Below, in pieces: positions 16,151 to 62,430 of a stretch of DNA of 64,000 bases. The translations under genes were made by a program, and so were the position numbers. Position 1 is the first letter of the stretch, and every line of letters starts with the position of its first letter. The notes under the pieces are model-generated. The model made no database searches, was not told the origin of the DNA, and saw only the letters and a list, made by a program, of their open reading frames with translations. The stretch is from Sipunculus nudus (Eukaryota; Annelida; Sipuncula; Golfingiida; Sipunculidae). The stretch covers positions 79,376,065-79,440,064 of the forward strand of contig CM049315.1 in the NCBI GenBank assembly GCA_026874595.1. The letters run 5' to 3'.

Positions 16151-16247
16151 ATGGACTATTCAGAAAACAAGACCAAGTCAAATTTGTATTGAGGAAACTT
16201 AAGTAAATATACAATGAGAGTGAAAGGAATAGGTATACCATACATTA

Positions 16248-17868
16248 TCATTTCAGTCGGAAGTGTTTAATTTTTTTAATATCCATTGCCCAGGGCAGAT
16301 CCACCTGCCACACAACAGGTTGGAATGATGCACTGCCTGCACCAAAACAGTTGAGGTCATACGCCCCCAGGAACGTGTATTCAGCGACCTGGAAGTAAAG
16401 AAAATGATGTAAGTATCGACTTGTGAGACAAAATATCTCTCAAGTCAATACTTACATCATTATGTAAGCAGACAGGTTTCTTTCTACCAGTAATCTGACT
16501 ACCCTATACTAACAAACTGCCTACCGACTAAGTACCCTACCCTATACTAACAAACTGCCTACCGACTAAGTACCCTACCCTAAAGAAACCTGCCTACTGA
16601 CTATGTACCCTACCGTAAATGGACCTGCCGACCCACTATGTAACCTACCCTGAAGGGACCTGCCTACCCACTAAGTACCCTACCCTAAAGGGACCTGCCT
16701 ACCCACTGAGTACCCTAGCCTAAAGGGACCTGCCTACCCACTGAGTACCCTAGCCTAAAAGGACCTGCCTAACCACTAAGTACCCTACCCTAAAGGTACC
16801 TGCCTATCCACTAAGTACCCTACCCTAAAGGGACCTGCCTACCCACTAAGTACCCTAGCCTAAAAGGACCTGCCTGCCGACTAAGTACCCTACCCTAAAG
16901 GGACCTGCCTGCCGACTAAGTACCCTACCCTTAAGAGACCTGCCTACCGACTAAGTACCCTACCCTAAAGGGACCTGCCTACCGACTAAGTACCCTACCC
17001 TAAAGGGACCTGCCTACCGACTAAGTACCCTACCCTAAAGAGACCTGCCTACCGACTAAGTACGCTACCCTAAAGGGACCTGCCTATCGACTAAGTACGC
17101 TACCCTAAAGGGACCTGCCTACCGACTAAGTACGCTACCCTAAAGGGACCTGCCCACCGACTAAGTACGCTACCCTAAAGGGACCTGCCTACCCACTAAG
17201 TACCCTGCTCTAAAGGGACCTGCCTACCCACTAAGTACCCTGCCCTAAAGGGACCTGCCTACCCACTAAGTACCCTGCTTAGAGGGACCTGCCTACCCAC
17301 TAAGTACCCTACCCTAAAGGGACCTGCCTACCCACTAAGTACCCTGCCTTAGAGGGACCTGCCTACCCACTAAGTACCCTACCCTAAAGGGACCTGCCTA
17401 CCCACTAAGTACCCTACCCTAAAGTGACCTGCCTACCCACTAAGTACCCTAACCTAAAGTGACCTGCCTACCTACTAAGTACCTTACCCTAAAGGGACCT
17501 GCCTACAGACTAAGTACCCTGCCTTAAAGGACCTGCCTACCCACTAAGTACCCTACCCTAAAGGGACCTGCCTGCCGACTAAGTACCCTACCCTAAAGGG
17601 ACCTGCCTGCCGACTAAGTACCCTACCCTTAAGAGACCTGCCTACCGACTAAGTACCCTACCCTAAAGGGACCTGCCTACAGACTAAGTAACCTACCCTG
17701 GGGGACCTGCCTACCGACTAAGTACCCTACCCTAAAGGAACCTGCCTAACAACTAAATAACCTATACTTATGACCTCCCTGACTGCTTACCTGTTTATGG
17801 AGAGGGGTACAGTCCACTGGTGCAGATTTTGTCAGGAACTCTTGTTTAGGTAATTGCCAACTGTCCAT
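16248..17868 (-). CDS. Candidate three-exon small gene (E2 exon 1 to E1 exons 2-3), satellite-filled intron
   Basis: Model on the minus strand: exon 1 17868-17791, intron 1 17790-16495 (1296 bp, nearly all satellite), exon 2 16494-16456, intron 2 16455-16389 (67 bp), exon 3 16388-16248 with stop TGA. All junctions are phase 0. Predicted product is 85 residues: MDSWQLPKQEF..., then ITGRKKPVCLHND, then VAEYTFLGAYDLNCFGAG... ending IKKIKHFRLK. It has no signal peptide or obvious membrane segment, three cysteines and a basic C-terminus. Intron 2 has a strong donor (GTAAGTATT), a branch-like CTTAC and a pyrimidine tract TTTTCTTTACTTCCAG. Intron 1 has donor GTAAGC but a purine-rich acceptor (TATAGGGTAGTCAG), the weakest part of the model. 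In E2, exon 1 ends HKQ because of CAG for AAG. I recognise no family. It could be a pseudogene fragment. Confidence 0.35.
16404..16460. repeat. 25-bp inverted repeat overlapping intron 2
   Basis: Arms 16404-16428 and 16436-16460 pair at 23 of 25 positions around a 7-bp loop (CAAAATA). The outer arm ends are ATGATGTAAGTAT and ATACTTACATCAT. On the minus strand the 5' splice site GTAAGT of candidate intron 2 lies inside one arm and the branch-like ACTTAC in the other. Copies are at 19811-19867, 23185-23241, 33246-33302, 36654-36710, 40028-40084, 45818-45874, 52372-52428, 55746-55802 and 62340-62396. Confidence 0.9.
16500..17770. repeat. Satellite block S1, short class (1271 bp)
   Basis: Head-to-tail 35-bp monomers with no inverted block. 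The first two monomers are the variant CCCTATACTAACAAACTGCC, which also flanks the other E units on this side. Monomers with GTACGCTACCC cluster at about 17060-17170 and GTACCCTGC at about 17200-17350. S4 is the matching copy with the same length. Confidence 0.95.
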
Positions 17869-19906
17869 AAATCCAGAATGATTGTTGATAGGAACTCAAG
17901 TCTTGGTTTTCTCTGAAAAATGGGTAAGCAAATTTATTAGAAACTACAATTGGTTGGACAAGATCCTAAGAGGGCCCCACATATACTAAAATGTAAACCA
18001 TTTATGATTTTTATATTGATATTAACCACCCCAGTAAATTGATGATAAAAACTCCATAATAAAAATGTGTGTATTTCTAACGATCTTTTTTTCACATATG
18101 AAAACTTATAAACATTTACGCAGGCATTATTTATTTTATTGAACAACATGCACACAACACATGCGTATGGTTGCATATGGTAATAAATCACAAAAAAATA
18201 CAAGCAGTAAATGTTCAACACTAGAAATGATTGCATATGGTAGTAAATAAAAAAAATATGAGTAGCAAATGATCAACATTTGCATTTGGTTACATATGGT
18301 ATTGAATTACTAAAGATATTGTAATAAATCACCATAGGCATATCTAGCAAATATGTAAATTAACCAGTAAAATTGACAAAAAAAAGTTGTCTATAACTAA
18401 AATATCAGTATTTATAACAATCTTTATCACAAAAGAAAATGTAAAAACAGGTATTTTCATCAGAATTTTTAGTTTCATCTAGCATATTCCACAGAAAACT
18501 TTCAAATGGTTTCAAATGATATTAACTCACTAAAGATATGGTACTAAATCACCAAAGACATGAGTCGCAAATGGTCGTTACAGTTCATCTAGACTCTACC
18601 AAACCCTTCAAAATCTTCGTCGTCTGACTGCAGGAATATTTGCATGATATCCTCTGTCCTCTTCTCGACTTCGTATGTAAAAAAAATTCATCCTCATCGT
18701 CATCATCAGAGCAACAGTGCTTGAATGATTAGATTATTATGTTGCTATCAATTTTGTGCGTCCCATGCGGCCTGGATCTGTTTCTGTTTGTGAAAATGTT
18801 TGCAACAGAAAATCTCTGATCCTGGACAGGCCGCCATATAGTACTTTGGGTGGGTCTGTTATTTGACAGGGATGGCACCAATCATCTTTTTCAATTTGAG
18901 AAAGAACAAGCATGTTCTTGTTGGGATATCCGGTGTGAAATAAATCACCGATTTTGCTCTGGCAGTCATATTGCATTTCCACCAGGTCTGTAATTCGATA
19001 GGTCTGAAGCCCTCATAGGTACCAATCATACTGTGAATATGATGAAGATCAAGCATCTTCTTATTGAGATATAGCACACAACAACAAAAATCACCGATTG
19101 TGCTCTGGCAGCCATATAGCAATTCCGACAAGTCTGTAATTCTGCAGGTCTGGAGCCCTGTAAGGTACCAACCATCCCAATGAATATGAGAAAGATCAAG
19201 CACGTTCTTATAAAGATATTTCGTGCCAAATAAAACCTGAATACCCAGAGAGGGTGTCATTCGATATGTCTGGAGCCCTTATAGGTACCAAACATCCCTG
19301 TGGATATGAGAAAAATCAAGCATGTTCTTTTTAAGATATCGTAGGTGTAAGAAAATCACCAGTTGTTCACTGGTGGCCAAATTGGAATACATACAGGTTT
19401 GTAATTCGAAAGGTCAAGATTCCTTATAGCTGCCAAACATCCCTGTGAATATTAGAATGATCTAGCTTGTTTTATTTGAGATATCATGCATGAAGAAAAT
19501 CATCCATTGTGCTCTGTGAGCAAATATTGGAATACCAACCGGTCTGCAATTAAATAGATGGACTATTCAGAAAACAAGACCAAGTCAAATTTGTATTGAG
19601 GAAACTTAAGTAAATATACAATGAGAGTGAAAGGAATAGGTATACCATACATTATCATTTCAGTCGGAAGTGTTTAATTTTTTTAATACCCATTGCCCAG
19701 GGCAGATCCACCTGGCACACAACAGGTTGGAATGATGCACTGCCTGCACCAAAACAGTTGAGGTCATACGCCCCCAGGAACGTGTATTCAGCGACCTGGA
19801 AGTAAAGAAAATGATGTAAGTATCGACTTGTGAGACAAAATATCTCTCAAGTCAATACTTACATCATTATGTAAGCAGACAGGTTTCTTTCTACCAGTAG
19901 TCTGAC
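17771..19906 (-). repeat. E2: AT-rich interspersed unit, type B
   Basis: Same layout as E1. Type B markers: GAACAACATGCACAC, GTTGTCTATAAC, GAAATAAATCACC (one A shorter than A/C types), TTCTTATAAAGATA, AATACCCATTGCC and CACCTGGCACAC. The left junction reads CTATACTTATGACC, shared with E5. The one-base loss at about 18943 splits the minus-strand frame of the repeat array into 81- and 133-codon pieces. Confidence 0.95.
18812..19557. repeat. Array of ~143-bp repeats in E2
   Basis: 5.5 copies in the same order as in E1, 746 bp long. The B-type changes are ATCGTAGGTG, TTCCTTATAGCTG and TATAAAGATATTTCG. Three overlapping minus-strand frames (81, 133 and 67 codons) cross it in different phases, which argues that none is maintained as protein. 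Confidence 0.9.
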
Positions 19907-21241
19907 TACCCGATACTAACAAACTGCCTACCGACTAAGTACCCTACCCTATACTAACAAACTGCCTACTGACTAAGTACCCTACCCTAAAGAAACCTGC
20001 CTACTGACTATGTACCCTACCGTAAATGGACCTGCCTACCCACTAAGTACCCTACCCTAAAGGGACCTGCCAACCCACTAAGTACCCTAGCCTAAAGGGA
20101 CCTGCCTACCCACTGAGTACCCTAGCCTAAAAGGACCTGCCTACCCACTAAGTACCCTACCCTAAAGGGACCTGCCTACCCACTAAGTACCCTACCCTAA
20201 AGGGACCTGCCTACCCACTAAGTACCCTAGCCTAAAAGGACCTGCCTGCCGACTAAGTACCCTACCCTAAAGGGACCTGCCTGCCGACTAAGTACCCTAC
20301 CCTTAAGAGACCTGCCTACCGACTAAGTACCCTACCCTAAAGGGACCTGCCTACCGACTAAGTACCCTACCCTAAAGGGACCTGCCTACCGACTAAGTAC
20401 CCTACCCTAAAGAGACCTGCCTACCGACTAAGTACGCTACCCTAAAGGGACCTGCCTATCGACTAAGTACGCTACCCTAAAGGGACCTGCCTACCGACTA
20501 AGTACGCTACCCTAAAGGGGCCTGCCCACCGAATAAGTACGCTACCCTAAAGGGACCTGCCTACCCACTAAGTACCCTGCCCTAAAGGGACCTGCCTACC
20601 CACTAAGTACCCTGCCCTAAAGGGACCTGCCTACCCACTAAATACCCTGCCTTAGAGGGACCTGCCTACCCACTAAGTACCCTACCCTAAAGGGACCTGC
20701 CTACCCACTAAGTACCCTGCCTTAGAGGGACCTGCTTACCCACTAAGTACCCTACCCTAAAGGGACCTGCCTACCCACTAAGTACCCTACCCTAAAGTGA
20801 CCTGCCTACCCACTAAGTACCCTAACCTAAAGTGACCTGCCTACCTACTAAGTACCCTACCCTAAAGGGACCTGCCTACAGACTAAGTACCCTGCCTTAG
20901 AGGACCTGCCTACCCACTAAGTACCCTACCCTAAAGGGACCTGCCTGCCGACTAAGTACCCTACCCTAAAGGGACCTGCCTGCCGACTAAGTACCCTACC
21001 CTTAAGAGACCTGCCTACCGACTAAGTACCATACCCTAAAGGGACCTGCCTACAGACTAAGTAACCTACCCTAGGGGACCTGCCTACCGACTAAGTACCC
21101 TACCCTAAAGGGACCTGCCTAACAACTAAGTAACCTATACTAATGACCTCCCTGACTGCTTACCTTTTTATAGAAAGGGGTACAGTCCACTGGTGCAGAT
21201 TTTGTCAGGAACTCTTGTTTAGGTAATTGCCAACTGTCCAT
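19655..21241 (-). CDS. Candidate three-exon small gene (E3 exon 1 to E2 exons 2-3)
   Basis: Exon 1 21241-21164, satellite intron 21163-19902 (1262 bp), exon 2 19901-19863, 67-bp intron 19862-19796, exon 3 19795-19655. Predicted length 85 residues. Exon 1 is the C-type version, ending PFYKK rather than PLHKK. Exon 2 starts TTGRKK. Exon 3 carries the two B-type replacements: Trp to Cys in the VVWQVD stretch (TGC for TGG) and Asp to Gly after PWAM. The replaced Trp suggests weak constraint or a non-functional copy. Confidence 0.3.
19907..21143. repeat. Satellite block S2, short class (1237 bp)
   Basis: Head-to-tail monomers, no inverted block. It begins TACCCGATACTAACAAACTG and contains the order of GTACGCTACCC and GTACCCTGCC monomers seen in S1. 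S5 and S8 are copies of identical length. Confidence 0.95.
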
Positions 21242-23280
21242 AAATCCAGAATGATTGTTGATAGGAACTCAAGTCTTGGTTTCCTCTGAAAAATGGGTAA
21301 GCAAATTTATTAGAAACTACAATTGGTTGGACAAGATCCTAAGAGGGCCCCACATATACTAAAATGTAAACCATTTATGATTTTTATATCGATATTAACC
21401 ACCCCAGTAAATTGATGATAAAAACTCCATAATAAAAATGTGTATTTCTAACGATCTTTTTTTTTCACATATGACAACTTATAAACATTTACGCAGGCAT
21501 TATTTATTTTATTGAACAATTTTCACACAACACATGCGTATGGTTGCAAATGGTAATAAATCACAAAAAAATACTAGCAGTAAATGTTCAACACTAGAAA
21601 TGATTGCATATGGTAGTAAATAAAAAACAAAATATGACTAGCAAATGAACAACATTTGCATTTGGTTACATATGGTATTGAATTACTAAAGATATTGTAC
21701 TAAATCACCATAGGCATATCTAGCAAATATGTAAATTAACCAGTAAAATTGACAAAAAAAAGTCTATAACTAAAATATCAGTATTTATAACAATCTTTAT
21801 CACAAAAGAAAATGTATAAACAGGTATTTTCATCAGAATTTTTAGTTTCATCTAGCATATTCCACAGAAAACTTTCAAATGGTTTCAAATGATATTAACT
21901 CACTAAAGATATGGTACTAAATCACCAAAGACATGAGTCGCAAATGGTCGTTACAGTTCATCTAGACTCTACCAAACCCTTCAAAATCTTCGTCGTCTGA
22001 CTGCAGGAATATTTGCATGATATCCTCTGTCCTCTTCTCGACTTCGTATGTAAAAAAAATTCATCCTCATCGTCATCATCAGAGCAACAGTGCTTGAATG
22101 ATTAGATTATTATGTTGCTATCAATTTTGTGCGTCCCATGCGGCCTTGATCTGTTTCTGTTTGTGAAAATGTTTGCAACAGAAAATCTCTGATCCTGGAC
22201 AGGCCGCCATATAGTACTTTGGGTGGGTCTGTTATTTGACAGGGATGGCACCAATCATCTTTTTTCAATTTGAGAAAGAACAAGCACGTTCTTGTTGGGA
22301 TATCCGGTGTGAAATAAAATCACCGATTTTGCTCTGGCAGTCATATTGCATTTCCACCAGGTCTGTAATTCGATAGGTCTGAAGCCCTCATAGGTACCGA
22401 TCATACTGTGAATATGATGAAGATCAAGCGTCTTCTTATTGAGATATAGCACACAACAACAAAAATCACCGATTGTGCTCTGGCAGCCATATAGCAATTC
22501 TGACAAGTCTGTAATTCTGCAGGTCTGGAGCCCTGTTAGGTACCAACCATCCCTATGAATATGAGAAAGATCAAGCACGTTCTTAGAAGATATTTCGTGC
22601 CAAATAAAACCTGAATACCCAGAGAGGGTGTCATTCGATATGTCTGGAGCCCTTATAGGTACCAAACATCCCTGTGGATATGAGAAAAATCAAGCATGTT
22701 CTTTTTAAGATATCGAAGGTGTAAGAAAATCACCAGTTGTTCACTGGTGGCCAAATTGGAATACATACAGGTTTGTAATTCGAAAGGTCAAGATTCCTCA
22801 TAGCTGCCAAACATCCCTGTGAATATTAGAATGATCTAGCTTGTTTTATTTGAGATATCATGCATGAAGAAAATCATCCATTGTGCTCTGTGAGCAAATA
22901 TTGGAATACCAGCCGGTCTGCAATTAAATAGATGGACTATTCAGAAAACAAGACCAAGTCAAATTTGTATTGAGGAAACTTAAGTAAATATACAATGAGA
23001 GTGAAAGGAATAGGTATACCATACATTATCATTTCAGTCGGAAGTGTTAAATTTTTTTAATATCCATTGCCCAGGGCAGATCCACCTGCCACACAACAGG
23101 TTGGAATGATGCACTGCCTGCACCAAAACAGTTGAGGTCATACGCCCCCAGGAACGTGTATTCAGCGACCTGGAAGTAAAGAAAATGATGTAAGTATCGA
23201 CTTGTGAGACAAAATATCTCTCAAGTCAATACTTACATCATTATGTAAGCAGACAGGTTTCTTTCTACCAGTAGTCTGAC
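21144..23280 (-). repeat. E3: AT-rich interspersed unit, type C
   Basis: Same layout as E1. Type C markers: TTATAGAAAGGGG near the left end, GGTTTCCTCTG, AAAAAACAAAATATGACTAG, CATCTTTTTTCAATT (six T), CCGATCATACTG, CAGCCGGTCTGC and GTGTTAAATTTTTTT. The extra T shifts the minus-strand frame in the repeat array, leaving 136 codons (22255-22665) that end QIEKR. Confidence 0.95.
22185..22931. repeat. Array of ~143-bp repeats in E3
   Basis: 5.5 copies, 747 bp. It carries the C-type six-T run that truncates the minus-strand open frame at 136 codons. Landmarks and order match E1. Confidence 0.9.
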
Positions 23281-26200
23281 TACCCTATACTAACAAACTG
23301 CCTACCGACTAAGTACCCTACCCTACACTAACAAACTGCCTACCGACTAAGTACCCTACCCTAAAGAAACCTGCCTACTGACTAAGTACCCTACCGTAAA
23401 TGGACCTGCCGACCAACTATGTAACCTACCCTGAAGGGACCTGCCTACCCACTAAGTACCCTACCCTAAAGGGACCTGCCTACCCACTGAGTACCCTAGC
23501 CTAAAGGGACCTGCCTACCCACTGAGTACCCTAGCCTAAAAGGACCTGCCTACCCACTAAGTACCCTACCCTAAAGGGACCTGCCTAGCCACTAAGTACC
23601 CTACCCTAAAGGGACCTGCCTACCCACCAAGTACCCTAGCCTAAAAGGACCTGCCTGCCGACTAAGTACCCTACCCTAAAGGGACCTGCCTGCCGACTAA
23701 TTACCCTACCCTTAAGAGACCTGCCTACCGACTAAGTACCCTACCCTATAGGGACCTGCCTACCGACTAAGTACCCTAGCCTAAAGGGACCTGCCTCCCG
23801 ACTAAGTACCCTATCTTAAAGTTCCTCCAGGGTAAGGTACTTAGCTGGTTGGCAGGTCCTTTAGGGTAAGGTACTGCCTGCCGACGAAGTACCCTACCTC
23901 AGAGGACCAGCCTACCGACTAAGTTCCTTACCATAGAGGACCTGCCTTCCCATTAAGTACCCTAACCTAAAGGGACCTGCCTACCCACTAAGAACCCTAC
24001 CCTAAAGGGACATGCCTAACGACTAAGTACCCTACCCTAAAGGGACCTGCCTACCCATTAAGTACCCTACCCTAAAGTGACCTGCCTACCGACTAAGTAC
24101 CCTACCCTAAAGGGTCCTGCCTACCGACTAAGTACCCTACCCTAAAGGGACCTGCCTACCCATTAAGTACCCTAGCCTAAATGGACCTGCCTACCCACTA
24201 AGTACCCTAGCCTTAAGGGACCTGCCTACCTACTAAGTACCCTACCCTAAAGGGACTAGCCTACCCACTAAGTACCCTAGCCTAAAGGGACATGCCTACC
24301 CCCTTAGTACCCTACCCTAAAGGGACCTGCCTACCGACTTAGTACCCTACCCTAAAGGGACCTGCCTACCCACTAAGTACCGTACCCTAAAGGGACCTGC
24401 CTACCCACTAAGTACCCCACCCTAAAGGGACCTGCCTACCAACTCAGTACCCTAGCCTAAAAGACCTACCTACCTACTAAGTACCCTACCCTAAAGAGAC
24501 CTATCTACAGTCTAAGTACCCTAGCCTAAGGGGACCTTCCTACCATTTACGTACACTAGCCTAAATGGACCTGCCTACCGAATAAGTACCCTACCCTATA
24601 GGGACCTGCCTCCCGACTAAGTACCCTATCTTAAAGTTCCTCCAGGGTAGGGTACTTAGCTGGTTGGCAGGTCCTTTAGGGTAAGGTACTGCCTGCCGAC
24701 GAAGTACCCTACCTCAGAGGACCAGCCTACCGACTAAGTTCCTTACCATAGAGGACCTGCCTTCCCATTAAGTACCCTAACCTAAAGGGACCTGCCTACC
24801 CACTAAGAACCCTACCCTAAAGGGACCTGCCTACCGACTAAGTACCCTACCCTAAAGGGACCTGCCTACCCATTAAGTACCCTACCCTAAAGTGACCTGC
24901 CTACCGACTAAGTACCCTACCCTAAAGGGACCTGCCTACCGACTAAGTACCCTACCCTAAAGGGACCTGCCTACCCATTAAGTACCCTAGCCTAAATGGA
25001 CCTGCCTACCCACTAAGTACCCTAGCCTTAAGGGACCTGCCTACCCACTAAGTACCCTACCCTAAAGGGACTAGCCTACCCACTAAGTACCCTAGCCTAA
25101 AGGGACATGCCTACCCCCTTAGTACCCTACCCTAAAGGGACCTGCCTACCGACTAAGTACCCTACCCTAAAGGGACCTGCCTACCCACTAAGTACCGTAC
25201 CCTAAAGGGACCTGCTTACCCACTAAGTACCCCACCCTAAAGGGACCTGCCTACCAACTCAGTACCCTAGCCTAAAAGACCTACCTACCTACTAAGTACC
25301 CTACCCTAAAGAGACCTATCTACAGTCTAAGTACCCTAGCCTAAGGGGACCTTAATACCATTTACGTACACTAGCCTAAATGGACCTGCCTACCGAATAA
25401 GTACCCTACCCTATAGGGACCTGCCTACCGACTAAGTATCCTACCCCATAGGGATTTGCCTACCGACTAAGTACCCTGGCCTAAAGGGACCTGCCTGCCG
25501 ACTAAGTACCCTATCTTAAAGTTCCTCCAGGGTAGGGTACTTAGCTGGTTGGCAGGTCCTTTAGGGTAGGGTACTGCCTGCCGACGAAGTACCCTACCTT
25601 GGAAGACCAGCCTACCGACTAAGTTCCTTACCCTAGAGGACCTGCCTACCCACTATGTTCGCTAGCCTAAAGGGACCTGCCGACCCACTAAGTACCCTAG
25701 CCTAAAGGGACCTGCCTACGGACTAAGTACCCTTCTATAAAGGGTCCTGCCTACCGACTAAGTACCCTTCCCTAAAGGGACCTGCCTACCGACTAAGTAC
25801 CCTACCCTAAAGTGATCTGCCTACCGACTAAGTACCCTACCCTAAAGTGATCTGCCTACCGACTAAGTACCCTACCCTACAGGGGCCTGCCTACCCATTA
25901 AGTACCCTAGCCTAAATGGACCTGCTTACCCACTAAGTACCCTAGCACTAAGGGACCTGTCTATCGACTAAGTACCCTACCTTAAAGGGACCTGCCTACC
26001 CACTAAGTACCCTAGACTAAAGGGACTAGCCTACCCACTAAGTACCCTACCCTAAAGGGACCTGCCTACCGACTAAGTACCGTACCCTAAAGGGACCTGC
26101 CTACCCACTAAGTACCCTACCCTAAAGGGACCTGCCTACCAACTAAGTACCCTACCCTAAAGAGACCTATCTACAGTCTAAGTACCCTAGCCTAAGGGGT

Positions 26201-29200
26201 CCTTCCTACCATTTACATACACTAGCCTAAATGGACCTGCCTACCGACTAAGTACCCTACCCTATAGGGACCTGCCTACTGACTAAGTACCCTACCCTGT
26301 AGGGACCTGCCTACCGACTAAGTACCCTGGCCTAAAGGGACCTGCCTGCCGAATAAGTACCCTATCTTAAAGTTCCTCCAGGGTAGGGTACTTAGCTGGT
26401 TGGCAGGTCCTTTAGGGTAGGGTACTGCCTGCCGACGAAGTACCCTACCTTAGAGGACCAGCCTACCGACTAAGTTCCTTACCCTAGAGGATATGCCTAC
26501 CCACTATGTTCGCTAGTCTAAAGGGACCTGCCTACCCACTAAGTACCCTAGCCTAAATGGACCTGCCAACCCACTAAGTACCCTAGACTAAAGGGACCTG
26601 CCTACGGACTAAGTACCCTTCTCTAAAGGGTCCTACCTACCGACTAAGTACCCTTCCCTTAAGGGACCTGCCTACCGACTAAGTACCCTACCCTAAAGTG
26701 ATCTGCCTACCGACTAAGTACCCTACCCTAAAGTGATCTGCCTACCCATTAAGTACCCTAGCCTAAATGGACCTGCATACCCACTAAGTACCCTATCCTT
26801 AAGGGACCTGTCTACCGACTAAGTACCCTACCTTAAAGGGACCTGCCTACCCACTAAGTACCCTAGCCTAAAGGGACTAGCCTACCCACTAAGTACCCTA
26901 GCCTAAAGGGACATGCCTACCCCCTTAGTACCCTACCCTAAAGGGACCTGCCTACCGACTAAGTACCCTACCCTAAAGGGACCTGCCTACCCACTAAGTA
27001 CCCTACCCTGAAGGGACCTGCCTACCAACTAAGTACCCTAGCCTAAAAGACCTACCTACCTACTAAGTACCCTACCCTAAAGAGACCTATCTACAGTCTA
27101 AGTACCCTAGCCTAAGGGGACCTTCCTACCATTTACGTACACTAGCCTAAATGGACCTGCCTACCGACTTAGTACCCTACCCTATATCGACCTGCCAACC
27201 GACTAAGTACCCTACCCTATAGGGACCTGCCTACCGACTAAGTACCCTAGCCTAAAGGGACCTGCCTCCCGACTAAGTACCCTATCTTAAAGTTCCTCCA
27301 GGGTAAGGTACTTAGCTGGTTGGCAGGTCCTTTAGGGTAAGGTACTGCCTGCCGACGAAGTACCCTACCTCAGAGGACCAGCCTACCGACTAAGTTCCTT
27401 ACCATAGAGGACCTGCCTTCCCATTAAGTACCCTAACCTAAAGGGACCTGCCTACCCACTAAGAACCCTACCCTAAAGGGACATGCCTACCGACTAAGTA
27501 CCCTACCCTAAAGGGACCTGCCTACCCATTAAGTACCCTACCCTAAAGTGACCTGCCTACCGACTAAGTACCCTACCCTAAAGGGTCCTGCCTACCGACT
27601 AAGTACCCTACCCTAAAGGGACCTGCCTACCCATTAAGTACCCTAGCCTAAATGGACCTGCCTACCCACTAAGTACCCTAGCCTTAAGGGACCTGCCTAC
27701 CTACTAAGTACCCTACCCTAAAGGGACTAGCCTACCCACTAAGTACCCTAGCCTAAAGGGACATGCCTACCCCCTTAGTACCCTACCCTAAAGGGACCTG
27801 CCTACCGACTTAGTACCCTACCCTAAAGGGACCTGCCTACCCACTAAGTACCGTACCCTAAAGGGACCTGCCTACCCACTAAGTACCCCACCCTAAAGGG
27901 ACCTGCCTACCAACTCAGTACCCTAGCCTAAAAGACCTACCTACCTACTAAGTACCCTACCCTAAAGAGACCTATCTACAGTCTAAGTACCCTAGCCTAA
28001 GGGGACCTTCCTACCATTTACGTACACTAGCCTAAATGGACCTGCCTACCGAATAAGTACCCTACCCTATAGGGACCTGCCTACCGACTAAGTATCCTAC
28101 CCTATAGGGACTTGCCTACCGACTAAGTACCCTGGCCTAAAGGGACCTGCCTGCCGACTAAGTACCCTATCTTAAAGTTCCTCCAGGGTAGGGTACATTG
28201 CTGGTTGGCAGGTCCTTTAGGGTAGGGTACTGCCTGCCGATGAAGTACCCTACCTTGGAAGACCAGCCTACCGACTAAGTTCCTTACCCTAGAGGACCTG
28301 CCTACCCACTATGTTCGCTAGCCTAAAGGGACCTGCCTACCCACTAAGTACCCTAGCCTAAATGGACCTGCCAACCCACTAAGTACCCTAGCCTAAAGGG
28401 ACCTGCCTACGGACTAAGTACCCTTCTATAAAGGGTCCTGCCTACCGACTAAGTACCCTTCCCTAAAGGGACCTGCCTACCGACTAAGTACCCTACCCTA
28501 AAGTGATCTGCCTACCGACTAAGTACCCTACCCTAAAGGGACCTGCCTACCCATTAAGTACCCTAGCCTAAATGGACCTGTTTACCCACTAAGTACCCTA
28601 GCACTAAGGGACCTGTCTATCGACTAAGTACCCTACCTTAAAGGGACCTGCCTACCCACTAAGTACCCTAGACTAAAGGGACTAGCCTACCCACTAAGTA
28701 CCCTATCCTAAAGGGACCTGCCTACCGACTGAGTACCCTACCCTAAAGTGAACTGCCTACCGACTAAGTACCCTACCCTAAAGTGATCTTCCTACCGACT
28801 AAGTACCCTAACCTAAAGGGACCTGCCTACCCATTAAGTACCCTAGCCTAAATGGACCTGCCTACCCACTAAGTACCCTAGCCTTAAGGGACCTGTCTAC
28901 CCACTGAGTACCCTAGCCTAAAGGGACCTGCCTAGCCACTAAGTTCCCTAGCCTAAAGGGACTAGCCTATCCACTAAGTACCCTAGCCTAAAGGGACCTG
29001 CCTACCCCCTTAGTACCCTACCCTAAAGGGATCTACCTACCGACTAAGTACCCTACCCTAAAGGGACCTGCCTACCCACTAAGTACCCTAGCCTAAAGGG
29101 ACTAGCCTACCCACTAAGTACCCTAGCCTGAAGGGACCTGCCTACCCCCTTAGTACCCTACCCTAAAGAGACCTATCTACAGTCTAAGTACCCTAGCCTA

Positions 29201-32992: not shown

Positions 32993-33089
32993 ATGGACTA
33001 TTCAGAAAACAAGACCAAGTCAAATTTGTATTGAGGAAACTTAAGTAAATATACAATGAGAGTGAAAGGAATAGGTATACCATACATTA

Positions 33090-43100: not shown

Positions 43101-43874
43101 TGCCCTAAAGTGACCTGCCTACCGACTAAGTACCCTACCCTATACTAACAAACTGCCTACCGACTAAGTACCCTACCCTAAAGGGACCTGCCTGCCCATT
43201 AAGTACCCTAGCCTAAATGGACCTGCCTACCCACTAAGTACCCTAGCCTTAAGGGACCTGTCTACCCACTGAGTACCCTAGCCTAAAGGGACCTGCCTAG
43301 CCACTAAGTACCCTAGCCTAAAGGGACTAGCCTACCCACTAAGTAACCTAGCCTAAAGGGACCTGCCTACCCCCTTAGTACCCTACCCTAAAGAGACCTG
43401 CCTACCGACTAAGTACCCTACCCTAAAGGGACCTTCCTACCCACTAAGTACCCTAGCCTAAAGGGACCTGGCTACCCACTAAGTACCGTACCCTAAAGGG
43501 ACCTGCCTACCGACTAAGTACCGTACCCTAAAGGGACCTGCCTACCCACTAAGTACCTTACCCTAAAGGGACCTACCTACCTACTAAGTACCCTACTCTG
43601 AAGAGACCTATCTACAGTCTAAGTACCCTAGCCTAAAGGGACCTTCCTACCATTTACGTACACTAGCCTAAATGGACCTGCCTACCGACTAAGTACCCTA
43701 CCCTAAAGTGACCCGCCTACCGACTAAGTACCCTACCCTAAAGGGACCTGCCTAACAACTAAGTAACCTATACTAATGACCTCCCTGACTGCTTACCTTT
43801 TTATGGAGAGGGGTACAGTCCACTGGTGCAGATTTTGTCAGGAACTCTTGTTTAGGTAATTGCCAACTGTCCAT
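39890..43874 (-). CDS. Candidate three-exon small gene (E7 exon 1 to E6 exons 2-3), early stop
   Basis: Exon 1 43874-43797 (PLHKK), satellite intron 43796-40119 (3678 bp), exon 2 40118-40080, intron 2 40079-40013, exon 3 40012-39890 ending at the C-type early TAA. Predicted 79 residues, lacking KHFRLK. The intron contains three inverted satellite blocks. Confidence 0.25.
40124..43776. repeat. Satellite block S6, long class with an ~804-bp deletion (3.65 kb)
   Basis: Inverted blocks start at 40670, 41555 and 42860. At about 42680 the order jumps from the TATATCGACC group to the CCTACCTACCCACTAAGTTCC group, skipping one 734-bp unit plus two monomers (70 bp) that S3, S7 and S9 retain. The size difference between E6-E7 spacing (5790) and E9-E10 spacing (6594) is exactly 804. 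Confidence 0.93.
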
Positions 43875-50433: not shown

Positions 50434-52467
50434 AAATCCAGAATGATTGTTGATAGGAACTCAAGTCTTGGTTTTCTCTGAAAAATGGGTAAGCAAATTT
50501 ATAAGAAACTACAATTGGTTGGACAAGATCCTAAGAGGGCCCCACATATACTAAAATGTAAACCATTTATGATTTTTATATCGATATTAACCACCCCAGT
50601 AAATTGATGATAAAAACTCAATAATAAAAATGTGTATTTCTAACGATCTTTTTTTTTCACATATGACAACTTATAAACATTTACGCAGACATTATTTATT
50701 TTATTGAACAATTTTCACACAACACATGCGTATGGTTGCAAATGGTAATAAATCACAAAAAAATACTAGCAGTAAATGTTCAACACTAGAAATGATTGCA
50801 TATGGTAGTAAATAAAAAAAATATGAGTAGCAAATGATCAACATTTGCATTTGGTTACATATGGTATTGAATTACTAAAGATATTGTACTAAATCACCAT
50901 AGGCATATCTAGCAAATATGTAAATTAACCAGTAAAATTGACAAAAAAAAGTCTATAACTAAAATATCAGTATTTATAACAATCTTTATCACAAAAGAAA
51001 ATGTATAAACAGGTATTTTCATCAGAATTTTTAGTTTCATCTAGCATATTCCACAGAAAACTTTCAAATGGTTTCAAATGATATTAAACCACTAAAGATA
51101 GGGTACAAAATCACCAAAGACATGAGTCGCAAATGGTCGTTACAGTTCATCTAGACTCTACCAAACCCTTCAAAATCTTCGTCGTCTGACTGCAGGAATA
51201 TTTGCATGATATCCTCTGTCCTCTTCTCGACTTCGTATGTAAAACAAATTCATCCTCATCGTCATCATCAGAGCAACAGTGCTTGAATGATTAGATTATT
51301 ATGTTGCTATCAATTTTGTGCGTCCCATGCGGCCTTGATCTGTTTCTGTTTGTGAAAATGTTTGCAACAGAAAATCTCTGATCCTGGACAGGCCGCCATA
51401 TAGTACTTTGGGTGGGTCTGTTATTTGACAGGGATGGCACCAATCATCTTTTTCAATTTGAGAAAGAACAAGCATGTTCTTGTTGGGATATCCGGTGTGA
51501 AATAAAATCACCGATTTTGCTCTGGCAGTCATATTGCATTTCCACCAGGTCTGTAATTCGATAGGTCTGAAGCCCTCATAGGTACCAATCATACTGTGAA
51601 TATGATGAAGATCAAGCATCTTCTTATTGAGATATAGCACACAACAACAAAAATCACCGATTGTGCTCTGGCAGCCAAAAACAATTCCGACAAGTCTGTA
51701 ATTCTGCAGGTCTGGAGACCTGTTAGGTACCAACCATCCCAATGAATATGAGAAAGATCAAGCACGTTCTTAGAAGATATTTCGTGCCAAATAAAACCTG
51801 AATACCCAGAGAGGGTGTCATTCGATATGTCTGGAGCCCTTATAGGTACCAAACATCCCTGTGGATATGAGAAAAATCAAGCATGTTCTTTTTAAGATAT
51901 CGAAGGTGTAAGAAAATCACCAGTTGTTCACTGGTGGCCAAATTGGAATACATACAGGTTTGTAATTCGAAAGGTCAAGATTCCTCATAGCTGCCAAACA
52001 TCCCTGTGAATATTAGAATGATCTAGCTTGTTTTATTTGAGATATCATGCATGAAGAAAATCATCCATTGTGCTCTGTGAGCAAATATTGGAATACCAAC
52101 CGGTCTGCAATTAAATAGATGGACTATTCAGAAAACAAGACCAAGTCAAATTTGTATTGAGGAAACTTAAGTAAATATACAATGAGAGTGAAAGGAATAG
52201 GTATACCATACATTATCATTTCAGTCGGAAGTGTTTAATTTTTTTAATACCCATTGCCCAGGGCAGATCCACCTGGCACACAACAGGTTGGAATGATGCA
52301 CTGCCTGCACCAAAACAGTTGAGGTCATACGCCCCCAGGAACGTGTATTCAGCGACCTGGAAGTAAAGAAAATGATGTAAGTATCGACTTGTGAGACAAA
52401 ATATCTCTCAAGTCAATACTTACATCATTATGTAAGCAGACAGGTTTCTTTCTACCAGTAGTCTGAC
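50336..52467 (-). repeat. E8: AT-rich interspersed unit, A/B recombinant
   Basis: A-like from the left end through 51990 (ACTCAATAATAAA, GCAGACATT, AAACCACTAAAGATAGGG, CCAAAAACAATTCC, TTCCTCATAGCTG), then B-like from about 52248 (AATACCCATTGCC, CACCTGGCACAC, TAGTCTGACTACCCGATAC). The following satellite S8 is the type that follows B units. The switch lies in the roughly 260 bp between 51990 and 52248, where A and B are identical. Confidence 0.92.
51374..52118. repeat. Array of ~143-bp repeats in E8
   Basis: 745 bp, identical in type to E1, with the same one-base deletion that splits the minus-strand frame into 147 codons (51299-51742) and 87 codons (51589-51852). Confidence 0.9.
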
Positions 52468-53802
52468 TACCCGATACTAACAAACTGCCTACCGACTAAG
52501 TACCCTACCCTATACTAACAAACTGCCTACTGACTAAGTACCCTACCCTAAAGAAACCTGCCTACTGACTATGTACCCTACCGTAAATGGACCTGCCTAC
52601 CCACTAAGTACCCTACCCTAAAGGGACCTGCCAACCCACTAAGTACCCTAGCCTAAAGGGACCTGCCTACCCACTGAGTACCCTAGCCTAAAAGGACCTG
52701 CCTACCCACTAAGTACCCTACCCTAAAGGGACCTGCCTACCCACTAAGTACCCTACCCTAAAGGGACCTGCCTACCCACTAAGTACCCTAGCCTAAAAGG
52801 ACCTGCCTGCCGACTAAGTACCCTACCCTAAAGGGACCTGCCTGCCGACTAAGTACCCTACCCTTAAGAGACCTGCCTACCGACTAAGTACCCTACCCTA
52901 AAGGGACCTGCCTACCGACTAAGTACCCTACCCTAAAGGGACCTGCCTACCGACTAAGTACCCTACCCTAAAGAGACCTGCCTACCGACTAAGTACGCTA
53001 CCCTAAAGGGACCTGCCTATCGACTAAGTACGCTACCCTAAAGGGACCTGCCTACCGACTAAGTACGCTACCCTAAAGGGGCCTGCCCACCGAATAAGTA
53101 CGCTACCCTAAAGGGACCTGCCTACCCACTAAGTACCCTGCCCTAAAGGGACCTGCCTACCCACTAAGTACCCTGCCCTAAAGGGACCTGCCTACCCACT
53201 AAATACCCTGCCTTAGAGGGACCTGCCTACCCACTAAGTACCCTACCCTAAAGGGACCTGCCTACCCACTAAGTACCCTGCCTTAGAGGGACCTGCTTAC
53301 CCACTAAGTACCCTACCCTAAAGGGACCTGCCTACCCACTAAGTACCCTACCCTAAAGTGACCTGCCTACCCACTAAGTACCCTAACCTAAAGTGACCTG
53401 CCTACCTACTAAGTACCCTACCCTAAAGGGACCTGCCTACAGACTAAGTACCCTGCCTTAGAGGACCTGCCTACCCACTAAGTACCCTACCCTAAAGGGA
53501 CCTGCCTGCCGACTAAGTACCCTACCCTAAAGGGACCTGCCTGCCGACTAAGTACCCTACCCTTAAGAGACCTGCCTACCGACTAAGTACCCTACCCTAA
53601 AGGGACCTGCCTACAGACTAAGTAACCTACCCTAGGGGACCTGCCTACCGACTAAGTACCCTACCCTAAAGGGACCTGCCTAACAACTAAGTAACCTATA
53701 CTAATGACCTCCCTGACTGCTTACCTTTTTATGGAAAGGGGTACAGTCCACTGGTGCAGATTTTGTCAGGAACTCTTGTTTAGGTAATTGCCAACTGTCC
53801 AT
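52216..53802 (-). CDS. Candidate three-exon small gene (E9 exon 1 to E8 exons 2-3)
   Basis: Exon 1 53802-53725 ends PFHKK, intermediate between the A form (PLHKK) and the E3/E6 form (PFYKK). Satellite intron 53724-52463 (1262 bp), exon 2 52462-52424, intron 2 52423-52357, exon 3 52356-52216 with the B-type Cys and Gly replacements. Predicted 85 residues. Confidence 0.3.
52468..53704. repeat. Satellite block S8, short class (1237 bp)
   Basis: Copy of S2/S5: same length, same monomer order, head-to-tail only. Confidence 0.95.
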
Positions 53803-55841
53803 AAATCCAGAATGATTGTTGATAGGAACTCAAGTCTTGGTTTCCTCTGAAAAATGGGTAAGCAAATTTATTAGAAACTACAATTGGTTGGACAAGATCC
53901 TAAGAGGGCCCCACATATACTAAAATGTAAACCATTTATGATTTTTATATCGATATTAACCACCCCAGTAAATTGATGATAAAAACTCCATAATAAAAAT
54001 GTGTATTTCTAACGATCTTTTTTTTTCACATATGACAACTTATAAACATTTACGCAGGCATTATTTATTTTATTGAACAATTTTCACACAACACATGCGT
54101 ATGGTTGCAAATGGTAATAAATCACAAAAAAATACTAGCAGTAAATGTTCAACACTAGAAATGATTGCATATGGTAGTAAATAAAAAACAAAATATGACT
54201 AGCAAATGATCAACATTTGCATTTGGTTACATATGGTATTGAATTACTAAAGATATTGTACTAAATCACCATAGGCATATCTAGCAAATATGTAAATTAA
54301 CCAGTAAAATTGACAAAAAAAAGTCTATAACTAAAATATCAGTATTTATAACAATCTTTATCACAAAAGAAAATGTATAAACAGGTATTTTCATCAGAAT
54401 TTTTAGTTTCATCTAGCATATTCCACAGAAAACTTTCAAATGGTTTCAAATGATATTAACTCACTAAAGATATGGTACTAAATCACCAAAGACATGAGTC
54501 GCAAATGGTCGTTACAGTTCATCTAGACTCTACCAAACCCTTCAAAATCTTCGTCGTCTGACTGCAGGAATATTTGCATGATATCCTCTGTCCTCTTCTC
54601 GACTTCGTATGTAAAAAAAATTCATCCTCATCGTCATCATCAGAGCAACAGTGCTTGAATGATTAGATTATTATGTTGCTATCAATTTTGTGCGTCCCAT
54701 GCGGCCTTGATCTGTTTCTGTTTGTGAAAATGTTTGCAACAGAAAATCTCTGATCCTGGACAGGCCGCCATATAGTACTTTGGGTGGGTCTGTTATTTGA
54801 CAGGGATGGCACCAATCATCTTTTTTCAATTTGAGAAAGAACAAGCACGTTCTTGTTGGGATATCCGGTGTGAAATAAAATCACCGATTTTGCTCTGGCA
54901 GTCATATTGCATTTCCACCAGGTCTGTAATTCGATAGGTCTGAAGCCCTCATAGGTACCGATCATACTGTGAATATGATGAAGATCAAGCGTCTTCTTAT
55001 TGAGATATAGCACACAACAACAAAAATCACCGATTGTGCTCTGGCAGCCATATAGCAATTCTGACAAGTCTGTAATTCTGCAGGTCTGGAGCCCTGTTAG
55101 GTACCAACCATCCCTATGAATATGAGAAAGATCAAGCACGTTCTTAGAAGATATTTCGTGCCAAATAAAACCTGAATACCCAGAGAGGGTGTCATTCGAT
55201 ATGTCTGGAGCCCTTATAGGTACCAAACATCCCTGTGGATATGAGAAAAATCAAGCATGTTCTTTTTAAGATATCGAAGGTGTAAGAAAATCACCAGTTG
55301 TTCACTGGTGGCCAAATTGGAATACATACAGGTTTGTAATTCGAAAGGTCAAGATTCCTCATAGCTGCCAAACATCCCTGTGAATATTAGAATGATCTAG
55401 CTTGTTTTATTTGAGATATCATGCATGAAGAAAATCATCCATTGTGCTCTGTGAGCAAATATTGGAATACCAGCCGGTCTGCAATTAAATAGATGGACTA
55501 TTCAGAAAACAAGACCAAGTCAAATTTGTATTGAGGAAACTTAAGTAAATATACAATGAGAGTGAAAGGAATAGGTATACCATACATTATCATTTCAGTC
55601 GGAAGTGTTAAATTTTTTTAATATCCATTGCCCAGGGCAGATCCACCTGCCACACAACAGGTTGGAATGATGCACTGCCTGCACCAAAACAGTTGAGGTC
55701 ATACGCCCCCAGGAACGTGTATTCAGCGACCTGGAAGTAAAGAAAATGATGTAAGTATCGACTTGTGAGACAAAATATCTCTCAAGTCAATACTTACATC
55801 ATTATGTAAGCAGACAGGTTTCTTTCTACCAGTAGTCTGAC
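53705..55841 (-). repeat. E9: AT-rich interspersed unit, type C
   Basis: C-type markers throughout. The left end reads TTATGGAAAGG, one base different from E3/E6 (TTATAGAAAGG), suggesting it branched before that change. Confidence 0.95.
54746..55492. repeat. Array of ~143-bp repeats in E9
   Basis: 747 bp, C-type. The minus-strand frame 54816-55226 is the 136-codon version. Confidence 0.9.
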
Positions 55842-58800
55842 TACCCTATACTAACAAACTGCCTACCGACTAAGTACCCTACCCTACACTAACAAACTGC
55901 CTACCGACTAAGTACCCTACCCTAAAGAAACCTGCCTACTGACTAAGTACCCTACCGTAAATGGACCTGCCGACCAACTATGTAACCTACCCTGAAGGGA
56001 CCTGCCTACCCACTAAGTACCCTACCCTAAAGGGACCTGCCTACCCACTGAGTACCCTAGCCTAAAGGGACCTGCCTACCCACTGAGTACCCTAGCCTAA
56101 AAGGACCTGCCTACCCACTAAGTACCCTACCCTAAAGGGACCTGCCTAGCCACTAAGTACCCTACCCTAAAGGGACCTGCCTACCCACCAAGTACCCTAG
56201 CCTAAAAGGACCTGCCTGCCGACTAAGTACCCTACCCTAAAGGGACCTGCCTGCCGACTAATTACCCTACCCTTAAGAGACCTGCCTACCGACTAAGTAC
56301 CCTACCCTATAGGGACCTGCCTACCGACTAAGTACCCTAGCCTAAAGGGACCTGCCTCCCGACTAAGTACCCTATCTTAAAGTTCCTCCAGGGTAAGGTA
56401 CTTAGCTGGTTGGCAGGTCCTTTAGGGTAAGGTACTGCCTGCCGACGAAGTACCCTACCTCAGAGGACCAGCCTACCGACTAAGTTCCTTACCATAGAGG
56501 ACCTGCCTTCCCATTAAGTACCCTAACCTAAAGGGACCTGCCTACCCACTAAGAACCCTACCCTAAAGGGACATGCCTACCGACTAAGTACCCTACCCTA
56601 AAGGGACCTGCCTACCCATTAAGTACCCTACCCTAAAGTGACCTGCCTACCGACTAAGTACCCTACCCTAAAGGGTCCTGCCTACCGACTAAGTACCCTA
56701 CCCTAAAGGGACCTGCCTACCCATTAAGTACCCTAGCCTAAATGGACCTGCCTACCCACTAAGTACCCTAGCCTTAAGGGACCTGCCTACCTACTAAGTA
56801 CCCTACCCTAAAGGGACTAGCCTACCCACTAAGTACCCTAGCCTAAAGGGACATGCCTACCCCCTTAGTACCCTACCCTAAAGGGACCTGCCTACCGACT
56901 TAGTACCCTACCCTAAAGGGACCTGCCTACCCACTAAGTACCGTACCCTAAAGGGACCTGCCTACCCACTAAGTACCCCACCCTAAAGGGACCTGCCTAC
57001 CAACTCAGTACCCTAGCCTAAAAGACCTACCTACCTACTAAGTACCCTACCCTAAAGAGACCTATCTACAGTCTAAGTACCCTAGCCTAAGGGGACCTTC
57101 CTACCATTTACGTACACTAGCCTAAATGGACCTGCCTACCGAATAAGTACCCTACCCTATAGGGACCTGCCTACCGACTAAGTATCCTACCCTATAGGGT
57201 TTTGCCTACCGACTAAGTACCCTGGCCTAAAGGGACCTGCCTGCCGACTAAGTACCCTATCTTAAAGTTCCTCCAGGGTAGGGTACATTGCTGGTTGGCA
57301 GGTCCTTTAGGGTAGGGTACTGCCTGCCGATGAAGTACCCTACCTTGGAAGACCAGCCTACCGACTAAGTTCCTTACCCTAGAGGACCTGCCTACCCACT
57401 ATGTTCGCTAGCCTAAAGGGACCGCCCTACCCACTAAGTACCCTAGCCTAAATGGACCTGCCAACCCACTTAGTACCCTAGCCTAAAGGGACCTGCCTAC
57501 GGACTAAGTGCCCTTCTATAAAGGGTCCTGCCTACCGACTAAGTACCCTTCCCTAAAGGGACCTGCCTACCGACTAAGTACCCTACCCTAAAGTGATCTG
57601 CCTACCGACTAAGTACCCTACCCTAAAGGGACCTGCCTACCCATTAAGTACCCTAGCCTAAATGGACCTGTTTACCCACTAAGTACCCTAGCACTAAGGG
57701 ACCTGTCTATCGACTAAGTACCCTACCTTAAAGGGAACTGCCTACCCACTAAGTACCCTAGACTAAAGGGACTAGCCTACCCACTAAGTACCCTACCCTA
57801 AAGGGACCTGCCTACCGACTGAGTACCCTACCCTAAAGTGAACTGCCTACCGACTAAGTACCCTACCCTAAAGTGATCTTCCTACCGACTAAGTACCCTA
57901 ACCTAAAGGGACCTGCCTACCCATTAAGTACCCTAGCCTAAATGGACCTGCCTACCCACTAAGTACCCTAGCCTTAAGGGACCTGTCTACCCACTGAGTA
58001 CCCTAGCCTAAAGGGACCTGCCTAGCCACTAAGTTCCCTAGCCTAAAGGGACTAGCCTACCCACTAAGTACCCTAGCCTAAAGGGACCTGCCTACCCCCT
58101 TAGTACCCTACCCTAAAGGGATCTACCTACCGACTAAGTACCCTACCCTAAAGGGACCTGCCTACCCACTAAGTACCCTAGCCTAAAGGGACTAGCCTAC
58201 CCACTAAGTACCCTAGCCTGAAGGGACCTGCCTACCCCCTTAGTACCCTACCCTAAAGAGACCTATCTACAGTCTAAGTACCCTAGCCTAAGGGGACCTT
58301 CCTACCATTTACGTACACTAGCCTAAATGGACCTGCCCACCGACTAAGTACCCTACCCTATATCGACCTGCCTACCAACTAAGTACCCTACCCTAAAGGG
58401 ACCTGCCAACCGACTAAGTACCCTACCCTAAAGGGACCTGCCTACAGACTAAGTACCTTACCCTAAAGGGACCTGCCTACCGACTAAGTACCCTAGCCTA
58501 AAGGGACCTGCCTACCCACTAAGTTCCCTAGCCTAAAGGGACCTGCCTACCGACTAAGTACCCTACCCTAAAGGGACCAGCTACCGACTAAGTACCCTAC
58601 GCTAAAGGGACCTACCTACCGACTAAGTACCCTAACCTAAAGGGACCTGCCTACCCATTAAGTAGCCTAGCCTAAATGGACCTGCCTACCCACTAAGTAC
58701 CCTAGCCTTAAGGGACCTGTCTACCCACTGAGTACCCTAGCCTAAAGGGACCTGCCTAGCCACTAAGTTCCCTAGCCTAAAGGGACTAGCCTACCCACTA

Positions 58801-60396
58801 AGTACCCTAGCCTAAAGGGACCTGCCTACCCCCTTAGTACCCTACCCTAAAGGAACCTACCTACCGACTAAGTACCCTACCCTAAAGGGACCTGCCTACC
58901 CACTAAGTACCCTAGCCTAAAGGGACTAGCCTACCCACTAAGTACCCTAGCCTGAAGGGACCTGCCTACCCCCTTAGTACCCTACCCTAAAGAGACCTAT
59001 CTACAGTCTAAGTACCCTAGCCTAAGGGGACCTTCCTACCATTTACGTACACTAGCCTAAATGGACCTGCCCACCGACTAAGTACCCTACCCTATATCGA
59101 CCTGCCTACCGACTAAGTACCCTACCCTAAAGGGACCTGCCAACCGACTAAGTACCCTACCCTAAAGGGACCTGCCTACAGACTAAGTACCTTACCCTAA
59201 AGGGACCTGCCTACCGACTAAGTACCCTAGCCTAAAGGGACCTACCTACCCACTAAGTTCCCTAGCCTAAAGGGACCTGCCTACCGACTAAGTACCCTAC
59301 CCTAAAGGGACCTGCTACCGACTAAGTACCCTACGCTAAAGGGACCTACCTACCGACTAAGTAGCCTATCTAAAAGTTCCTCCAGGGTAGGGTACTTAGC
59401 TGGTTGGCAGGTCCTTTAGGGTAGGGAACTGCCTGCCGACGAAGTACCCTACCTCAGAGGACCAGCCTACAGACTAAGTTCCTTACCATAGAGGACCTGC
59501 CTACCAACTGAGTACCCTACCCTAAAGGGACCTGCCTACACACTGAGAACCCTACCCTAAAGGGACCTGCCTAGCCACTAAGTACCCTAGCCTAAAGGGA
59601 CCTGCCTACCCAATAAGTACCCTGCCCTAAAGTGACCTGCCTACCGACTAAGTACCCTACCCTATACTAACAAACTGCCTACCGACTAAGTACCCTACCC
59701 TAAAGGGACCTGCCTGCCCATTAAGTACCCTAGCCTAAATGGACCTGCCTACCCACTAAGTACCCTAGCCTTAAGGGACCTGTCTACCCACTGAGTACCC
59801 TAGCCTAAAGGGACCTGCCTAGCCACTAAGTACCCTAGCCTAAAGGGACTAGCCTACCCACTAAGTAACCTAGCCTAAAGGGACCTGCCTACCCCCTTAG
59901 TACCCTACCCTAAAGAGACCTGCCTACCGACTAAGTACCCTACCCTAAAGGGACCTTCCTACCCACTAAGTACCCTAGCCTAAAGGGACCTGGCTACCCA
60001 CTAAGTACCGTACCCTAAAGGGACCTGCCTACCGACTAAGTACCGTACCCTAAAGGGACCTGCCTACCCACTAAGTACCTTACCCTAAAGGGACCTACCT
60101 ACCTACTAAGTACCCTACTCTGAAGAGACCTATCTACAGTCTAAGTACCCTAGCCTAAAGGGACCTTCCTACCATTTACGTACACTAGCCTAAATGGACC
60201 TGCCTACCGACTAAGTACCCTACCCTAAAGTGACCCGCCTACCGACTAAGTACCCTACCCTAAAGGGACCTGCCTAACAACTAAGTAACCTATACTAATG
60301 ACCTCCCTGACTGCTTACCTTTTTATGGAGAGGGGTACAGTCCACTGGTGCAGATTTTGTCAGGAACTCTTGTTTAGGTAATTGCCAACTGTCCAT
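55608..60396 (-). CDS. Candidate three-exon small gene (E10 exon 1 to E9 exons 2-3), early stop
   Basis: Exon 1 60396-60319 (PLHKK), satellite intron 60318-55837 (4482 bp), exon 2 55836-55798, intron 2 55797-55731, exon 3 55730-55608 ending at the C-type TAA. Predicted 79 residues. Confidence 0.25.
55842..60298. repeat. Satellite block S9, long class (4.46 kb)
   Basis: Inverted blocks start at 56398, 57273 and 59382. It retains the monomer missing from S7 and both 734-bp units. Private variants include GGGACCGCCCTACCC (about 57420) and AAGTGCCCTTC (about 57508). Confidence 0.95.
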
Positions 60397-62086: not shown

Positions 62087-62183
62087 ATGGACTATTCAGA
62101 AAACAAGACCAAGTCAAATTTGTATTGAGGAAACTTAAGTAAATATACAATGAGAGTGAAAGGAATAGGTATACCATACATTA

Positions 62184-62430
62184 TCATTTCAGTCGGAAGT
62201 GTTTAATTTTTTTAATATCCATTGCCCAGGGCAGATCCACCTGCCACACAACAGGTTGGAATGATGCACTGCCTGCACCAAAACAGTTGAGGTCATACGC
62301 CCCCAGGAACGTGTATTCAGCGACCTGGAAGTAAAGAAAATGATGTAAGTATCGACTTGTGAGACAAAATATCTCTCAAGTCAATACTTACATCATTATG
62401 TAAGCAGACAGGTTTCTTTCTACCAGTAGT
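62184..62430 (-). CDS. Candidate exons 2 and 3 of the small gene, exon 1 outside the window
   Basis: Exon 2 62430-62392 (TTGRKK...), intron 2 62391-62325, exon 3 62324-62184 with full C-terminus and TGA. The matching exon 1 would lie in an E unit past the right edge, beyond S10. Confidence 0.3.

Follow-up and report, generated by a model that had tools for sequence, protein, structure and literature searches.

A probable subtelomeric macrosatellite built from satellite-bearing units with gene-like edges in Sipunculus nudus

Architecture of the array

The window analysed here, a 64,000-nucleotide stretch of Sipunculus nudus contig CM049315.1 (C10:79,376,065-79,440,064 in an assembly of 1.43 Gb and 153 contigs), lies ~0.2 Mb from the end of a 79.64-Mb contig and holds ten minus-strand units (E units) whose ends resemble pieces of a split gene. 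As argued below, the array is probably a subtelomeric macrosatellite, formed when a satellite-bearing cassette with gene-like edges was duplicated in tandem. At one end of each unit, in what we call the left arm, a 78-bp block runs from an ATG to a splice-donor motif; in 10/10 units, it consists of ATG plus 26 codons, the last of them AAG or CAG, followed by GTAAGC. The opposite end, or right arm, carries a 39-bp block, a 67-bp GT..AG segment and a 141-bp block on the same strand, and again 10/10 units share the arrangement of CAG, 39 bp, GTAAGT...TTCCAG and 141 bp. The block junctions of the window units are in phase 0 throughout. Nine left/right pairs are complete, each separated by 1,262-7,953 bp of a 35-bp satellite (Table 1 gives the nine lengths in order). 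On the minus strand, the satellite monomer contains TTTAGGGTAGGG, which resembles TTAGGG, the animal telomere repeat, and the satellite is found near contig ends.

A first-pass annotation had read these features as a tandem array of a three-exon gene for an 85-residue protein, with the satellite as its first intron. Its motif positions, minus-strand orientation and phase-0 junctions recur in all ten units, its count of nine whole models agrees with the nine complete pairs, and the ATG, donors and acceptors are present, as it said, in 10/10 left and 10/10 right arms. Its claim of frames kept in every unit was wrong, however, as a premature TAA, produced by an AAA-to-TAA change six codons ahead of the normal stop, interrupts 3/10 terminal blocks (23029, 39872 and 55590). 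The suggestion that recent duplication explains much of the conservation in the window stands: measured against the query unit, identity across the ten units is 97.8-100% in the left arm and 99.0-100% in the right arm, and 10,269 bp beginning at 14362 are 99.85% identical to the sequence beginning at 31203, with a shift of 16.84 kb. Agreement among units inside the window is therefore no evidence of selection. A higher-order repeat of ~16.84 kb that holds three units occupies 14362-31202 and starts again at 31203.

Copies and relatives elsewhere in the genome

A whole-genome search recovered at least 34 left arms and at least 34 right arms, one of the latter truncated; the copy counts given below cover the 31/34 left arms and 32/34 right arms that were fetched and aligned. 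Most arms reside in arrays at C10:79.235-79.455 Mb and 78.49-78.52 Mb, with further copies at C4:73-95 kb, again at C4:792-816 kb, and at C6:88.48 Mb. All of these amplified copies are 0.07-1.2 Mb from contig ends. Kilobase units, a long head-to-tail array and near-identical copies, the features that define a macrosatellite, are thus present both in the ten window units and in the family at C10:79.235-79.455 Mb. The two C4 clusters (C4:72,884-94,801 and 792,559-816,717) contain the same copies twice, ~720 kb apart, reflecting either duplication of a large segment or an artefact of assembly.

Two copies are internal to their contigs, namely L001, a piece at C1:45.53 Mb that is truncated at its 5' end, and L002, a lone cassette at C4:31.86 Mb. 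Read on the gene strand, L002 comprises an upstream acceptor, the left arm, the donor, a 34-bp satellite, the right arm with its hairpin, the last block and an AATAAA signal. The satellite of L002 (13.2 copies of the 34-bp monomer, ~0.45 kb) matches that of the window with a score reached by 0/1000 shuffles. The first-pass annotation had paired the ends of neighbouring E units around the satellite, and L002 has precisely that order, making 'unit ends' a better reading of the blocks than 'insertions'. By contrast, the single-copy relative with a normal first intron that was looked for did not emerge, as the 'intron 1' of L002 is again satellite. Pieces of the array spacer flank the cassette, with E-unit positions 1713-1806 upstream (76%) and 1518-1650 downstream (91%). 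Because these are two adjoining parts of the spacer in the expected order, they fit arrays that arose through tandem duplication, the junction falling within the spacer. A repeat finder reports 60-bp repeats near this inferred junction in 5/10 window units.

The satellite also occurs by itself. At C15:63.94 Mb, the same 35-bp repeat fills ~15 of the 20 kb fetched, in which no arm was detectable (best nhmmer E 0.93), and it is therefore not bound to a role as an intron. This bare array (L058:5000-5999) opens with a short part on the opposite strand and then switches.

Older relatives of the left arm, including the acceptor TTTCTTTCAG/AGATAACC, are present at C11:72.69 Mb, C15:3.08 Mb and C17:5.68 Mb. 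They share mostly 73-80% identity with the C10/C4 family, and each precedes kilobases of a 33-bp satellite. Across four comparisons of the 33-bp and 35-bp monomers, the alignment score was reached by 29-49 of 1000 shuffles, and kinship between these satellites is only suggestive. When C15 is compared with C11 and C17, homology starts ~40-50 bp ahead of the acceptor. No right arm was found at the three loci, either in the stretches first fetched or by genome search, with the C15 satellite followed for part of its length. A parent gene was considered for weak matches on C17 and C11 and rejected, as the DNA downstream, which had looked coding, is a tandem repeat of ~760 bp, judging by the stagger of the alignments; on each of these two contigs, this repeat lies next to the 33-bp satellite (L051-L054). 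Blocks upstream that C15 and C17 have in common were likewise rejected as coding, given many indels not divisible by three, and a 600-bp stretch of this upstream DNA matched at 40 scored candidates of 529, indicating that it holds a dispersed repeat.

Sequence change and splice sites in the gene-like blocks

To compare rates, we counted changes on a tree of ten aligned E units of our choosing, two from the window and eight from elsewhere. The candidate exon blocks carry 67 changes in 258 sites, as against 320 in 1879 for the rest of the unit (Fisher test on changed sites, 0.004), and the difference persists when CpG sites are excluded (52/240 versus 269/1791; 0.03). Random sets of non-coding blocks matched the exon rate in 41/5000 trials. 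Intron 2, the 3' flank and the spacer all change more slowly than the exon blocks. Split by codon position, there are 27, 28 and 12 changes, which makes the third position the slowest (binomial test for depletion, 0.004); whichever frame of either block is taken, third positions show no excess. Among 21 pairs of copies, the proportion of nonsynonymous differences (pN) is 0.020-0.121 and that of synonymous differences (pS) is 0-0.125, with pN exceeding pS in 14.

Damage to the proposed gene is common among the fetched copies. The annotated frame is intact in 24/31 left and 20/32 right arms, the GT of donor 1 has become TT in 6/31 left arms, and at the alignment column of the upstream acceptor 2/31 have AA. 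An AATAAA no more than 60 bp from the last block occurs in 2/32 right arms, those of L001 and L002, both outside the arrays, and is absent from the ten window copies. Relatives have 1-, 2- and 4-bp indels within the frames. Searches of Pfam and the PDB, the two protein libraries covered, with the 85-residue product gave 0 Pfam families and a best PDB E of 1, which is not significant; a joined alternative frame gave 0 Pfam families and a best PDB E of 1.8, and one spacer frame matched 0 Pfam families. An alternative ancestral frame, open in one L004 left arm and in the right arms of L002 and L004, was rejected because of stops in most left arms. Taken together, these comparisons give no sign of a maintained protein.

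Splice sites were scored in one unit (314 GTs, 306 AGs) by a simple position weight matrix. Donor 1, beside the satellite, ranks 1/314 and acceptor 2, before the 141-bp block, ranks 1/306, and both sites thus exceed ordinary GT and AG dinucleotides. The intron-2 donor ranks 5/314. The intron-1 acceptor, which the first-pass annotation had itself singled out as the weak point, ranks only 186/306. An upstream acceptor, tttttcag/AGAAAACC, ranks 6/306 and lies 44 bp ahead of the ATG. The interval contains an in-frame TGA, and its 44 bp are slow to change (5/44). The 67-bp intron 2 is almost entirely a hairpin that has the donor within its stem, and a 131-nt piece folds at -49.9, compared with -23.8 +/- 3.4 for shuffled sequences (minimum free energy z -7.7). 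The hairpin begins ~35 bp into the right arm, ahead of the 141-bp block. This 67-bp stretch (16389-16455 and its equivalents) is a near-perfect palindrome, and its 25-bp arm, searched with up to two mismatches, was matched only at places belonging to the family. If the unit is spliced, joining of the best donor to the best acceptor, skipping the 39-bp block, would be the likelier route.

Origin of the array and alternative readings

In the macrosatellite model, the repeated unit consists of a 35-bp satellite array, two fixed flanks (the left and right arms) and a spacer of ~1.8 kb. The first tandem copies would have formed by unequal exchange between short flank repeats, later exchange would have spread the 16.8-kb three-unit block, and the satellite stretches would have lengthened and shortened independently. 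Both the AATAAA of L001 and L002 and the strong donor and acceptor that border the satellite are perhaps relics of an old spliced transcription unit; less likely, they belong to a non-coding transcript that still undergoes splicing.

Several observations sit uneasily with this model. The presence of the best donor and the best acceptor on either side of the satellite would be unlikely in random DNA. The left-arm acceptor TTTCAG/AGA is kept in all three older relatives, and the right-hand junctions AG, GT and AG are kept in 31/32 right arms, the exception being the truncated L001, although we do not count the latter as significant because few changes are expected at six bases. The 60 bp ahead of the left-arm acceptor change as fast as the exon blocks (16/60), so being fastest is not exclusive to the exons. 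The direct repeat flanking L002 is 30 bp long and only 83% identical. Finally, a young peptide under relaxed or diversifying selection could also show pN close to pS.

How do the alternatives fare? An array of genes for the 85-residue protein now seems very improbable. Open phase-0 blocks in 7/10 right and 10/10 left window arms, the strength of donor 1 and acceptor 2, the same topology in the lone cassette and the AATAAA past the last block of L001 and L002 all speak for it. Against them stand exon blocks that outpace intron 2 and spacer with no excess at third positions, pN close to pS, frames broken by 4-, 2- and 1-bp indels and premature stops, a donor 1 missing from 6/31 left arms, a poor intron-1 acceptor, an intron-2 donor buried in a stem, ten window copies lacking AATAAA, and a product with no Pfam family or significant PDB match. 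The excess of changes in the exon blocks, combined with few at third positions, is also readable as diversifying selection, and one could imagine tiny, fast-changing spliced genes near chromosome ends, for a peptide or a non-coding RNA, with a kilobase satellite as intron and exons that outpace introns as in diversifying peptide families; we regard such genes as unlikely. Continuing production of a spliced non-coding RNA, with 17791-17912 and the 141-bp block as exons and the 39-bp block and hairpin as intronic sequence, is a possibility to be taken more seriously, if still a doubtful one. Such an RNA would use donor 1, acceptor 2 and the upstream acceptor, all of high rank, and the last is kept in the C11, C15 and C17 relatives and followed by 44 slow bases. 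Nevertheless, the exon blocks lack sequence conservation, donor 1 reads TT in 6/31 left arms, and the C11, C15 and C17 sequence at that position differs (unscored).

The arms might instead be the ends of a mobile element with a central satellite. According to PMC7492417, oyster HINE elements, which are non-autonomous Helentrons, have two flanks around central satellite-like repeats and a palindrome in the right flank. The present family has the same plan of arms surrounding a tandem repeat with a hairpin in the right arm, and left-arm homology does begin abruptly ~40-50 bp ahead of the acceptor (C15/C17 and C11/C15). However, the at least 34 left and at least 34 right arms are a small copy number and lie mostly in tandem arrays, and the hairpin marks the start of the right arm rather than its 3' end as in the elements so described. 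Moreover, L002 was examined for subterminal inverted repeats and has none, its longest inverted match being 8 bp (shuffle mean 8.4; 168/200 shuffles as good), and the right arm was not found at C11, C15 or C17, within the part of the C15 satellite covered. A mobile origin consequently appears a poor prospect, and tandem duplication of the cassette is the explanation that we prefer.

Human macrosatellites include D4Z4 and RS447, as well as TAF11-Like and SST1. Macrosatellites consist of kilobase units arranged head to tail, sometimes close to a chromosome end, and have gene-like content (PMC3018141). The Sipunculus array resembles D4Z4, TAF11-Like, SST1 and RS447 in its kilobase head-to-tail units and gene-like content, but each unit here contains its own variable satellite array and a maintained reading frame was not found. 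Drosophila kl-3 and kl-5, which PMC6508621 presents as transcribed genes whose introns contain megabases of satellite, offer a parallel in having satellite between exons, candidate ones in our case, whereas the array here shows no coding constraint. A literature search, judged by titles and the openings of abstracts, returned nothing describing the array, which is no proof of its absence from print. If the array is only DNA, it offers a clear case of a satellite and its flanks turning into a macrosatellite, and because the lone cassette, the arrays and the bare satellite all persist in one genome, the steps are datable and testable. If it is spliced, satellite length would vary freely within the intron of a multicopy unit and would provide a natural test of repeat length against splicing.

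A scan of the window returned 0 Rfam families at gathering scores, and a tRNA scan gave 0. The repeat finder reports a 146-bp repeat in 8/10 spacers (15536-15804 and its equivalents), and upstream of the C11 left arm is a 146-bp repeat that differs from it.

Table 1 Features of the array, in window coordinates
Feature	Position	Strand	Remarks
Left-arm block ('exon 1', 26 codons)	14388..14465	-	right-arm partner beyond window
Left-arm block ('exon 1')	17791..17868	-	with upstream acceptor, possible exon 17791-17912
Left-arm block ('exon 1')	21164..21241	-	
Left-arm block ('exon 1')	31229..31306	-	
Left-arm block ('exon 1')	34633..34710	-	
Left-arm block ('exon 1')	38007..38084	-	
Left-arm block ('exon 1')	43797..43874	-	
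Left-arm block ('exon 1')	50356..50433	-	
Left-arm block ('exon 1')	53725..53802	-	
Left-arm block ('exon 1')	60319..60396	-	
Right-arm block	16248..16494	-	39 bp 16456-16494; 67-bp hairpin 'intron 2' 16389-16455; 141 bp with stop 16248-16388
Right-arm block	19655..19901	-	
Right-arm block	23029..23275	-	premature TAA in 141-bp part
Right-arm block	33090..33336	-	
Right-arm block	36498..36744	-	
Right-arm block	39872..40118	-	premature TAA
Right-arm block	45662..45908	-	
Right-arm block	52216..52462	-	
Right-arm block	55590..55836	-	premature TAA
Right-arm block	62184..62430	-	left-arm partner beyond window
35-bp satellite array between arms ('intron 1')	16495..17790		1296 bp
35-bp satellite array	19902..21163		1262 bp
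35-bp satellite array	23276..31228		7953 bp
35-bp satellite array	33337..34632		1296 bp
35-bp satellite array	36745..38006		1262 bp
35-bp satellite array	40119..43796		3678 bp
35-bp satellite array	45909..50355		4447 bp
35-bp satellite array	52463..53724		1262 bp
35-bp satellite array	55837..60318		4482 bp
Spacer of one unit	21242..23028		60-bp repeat 21540-21654 (at inferred tandem-duplication junction); 146-bp repeat 22316-22593

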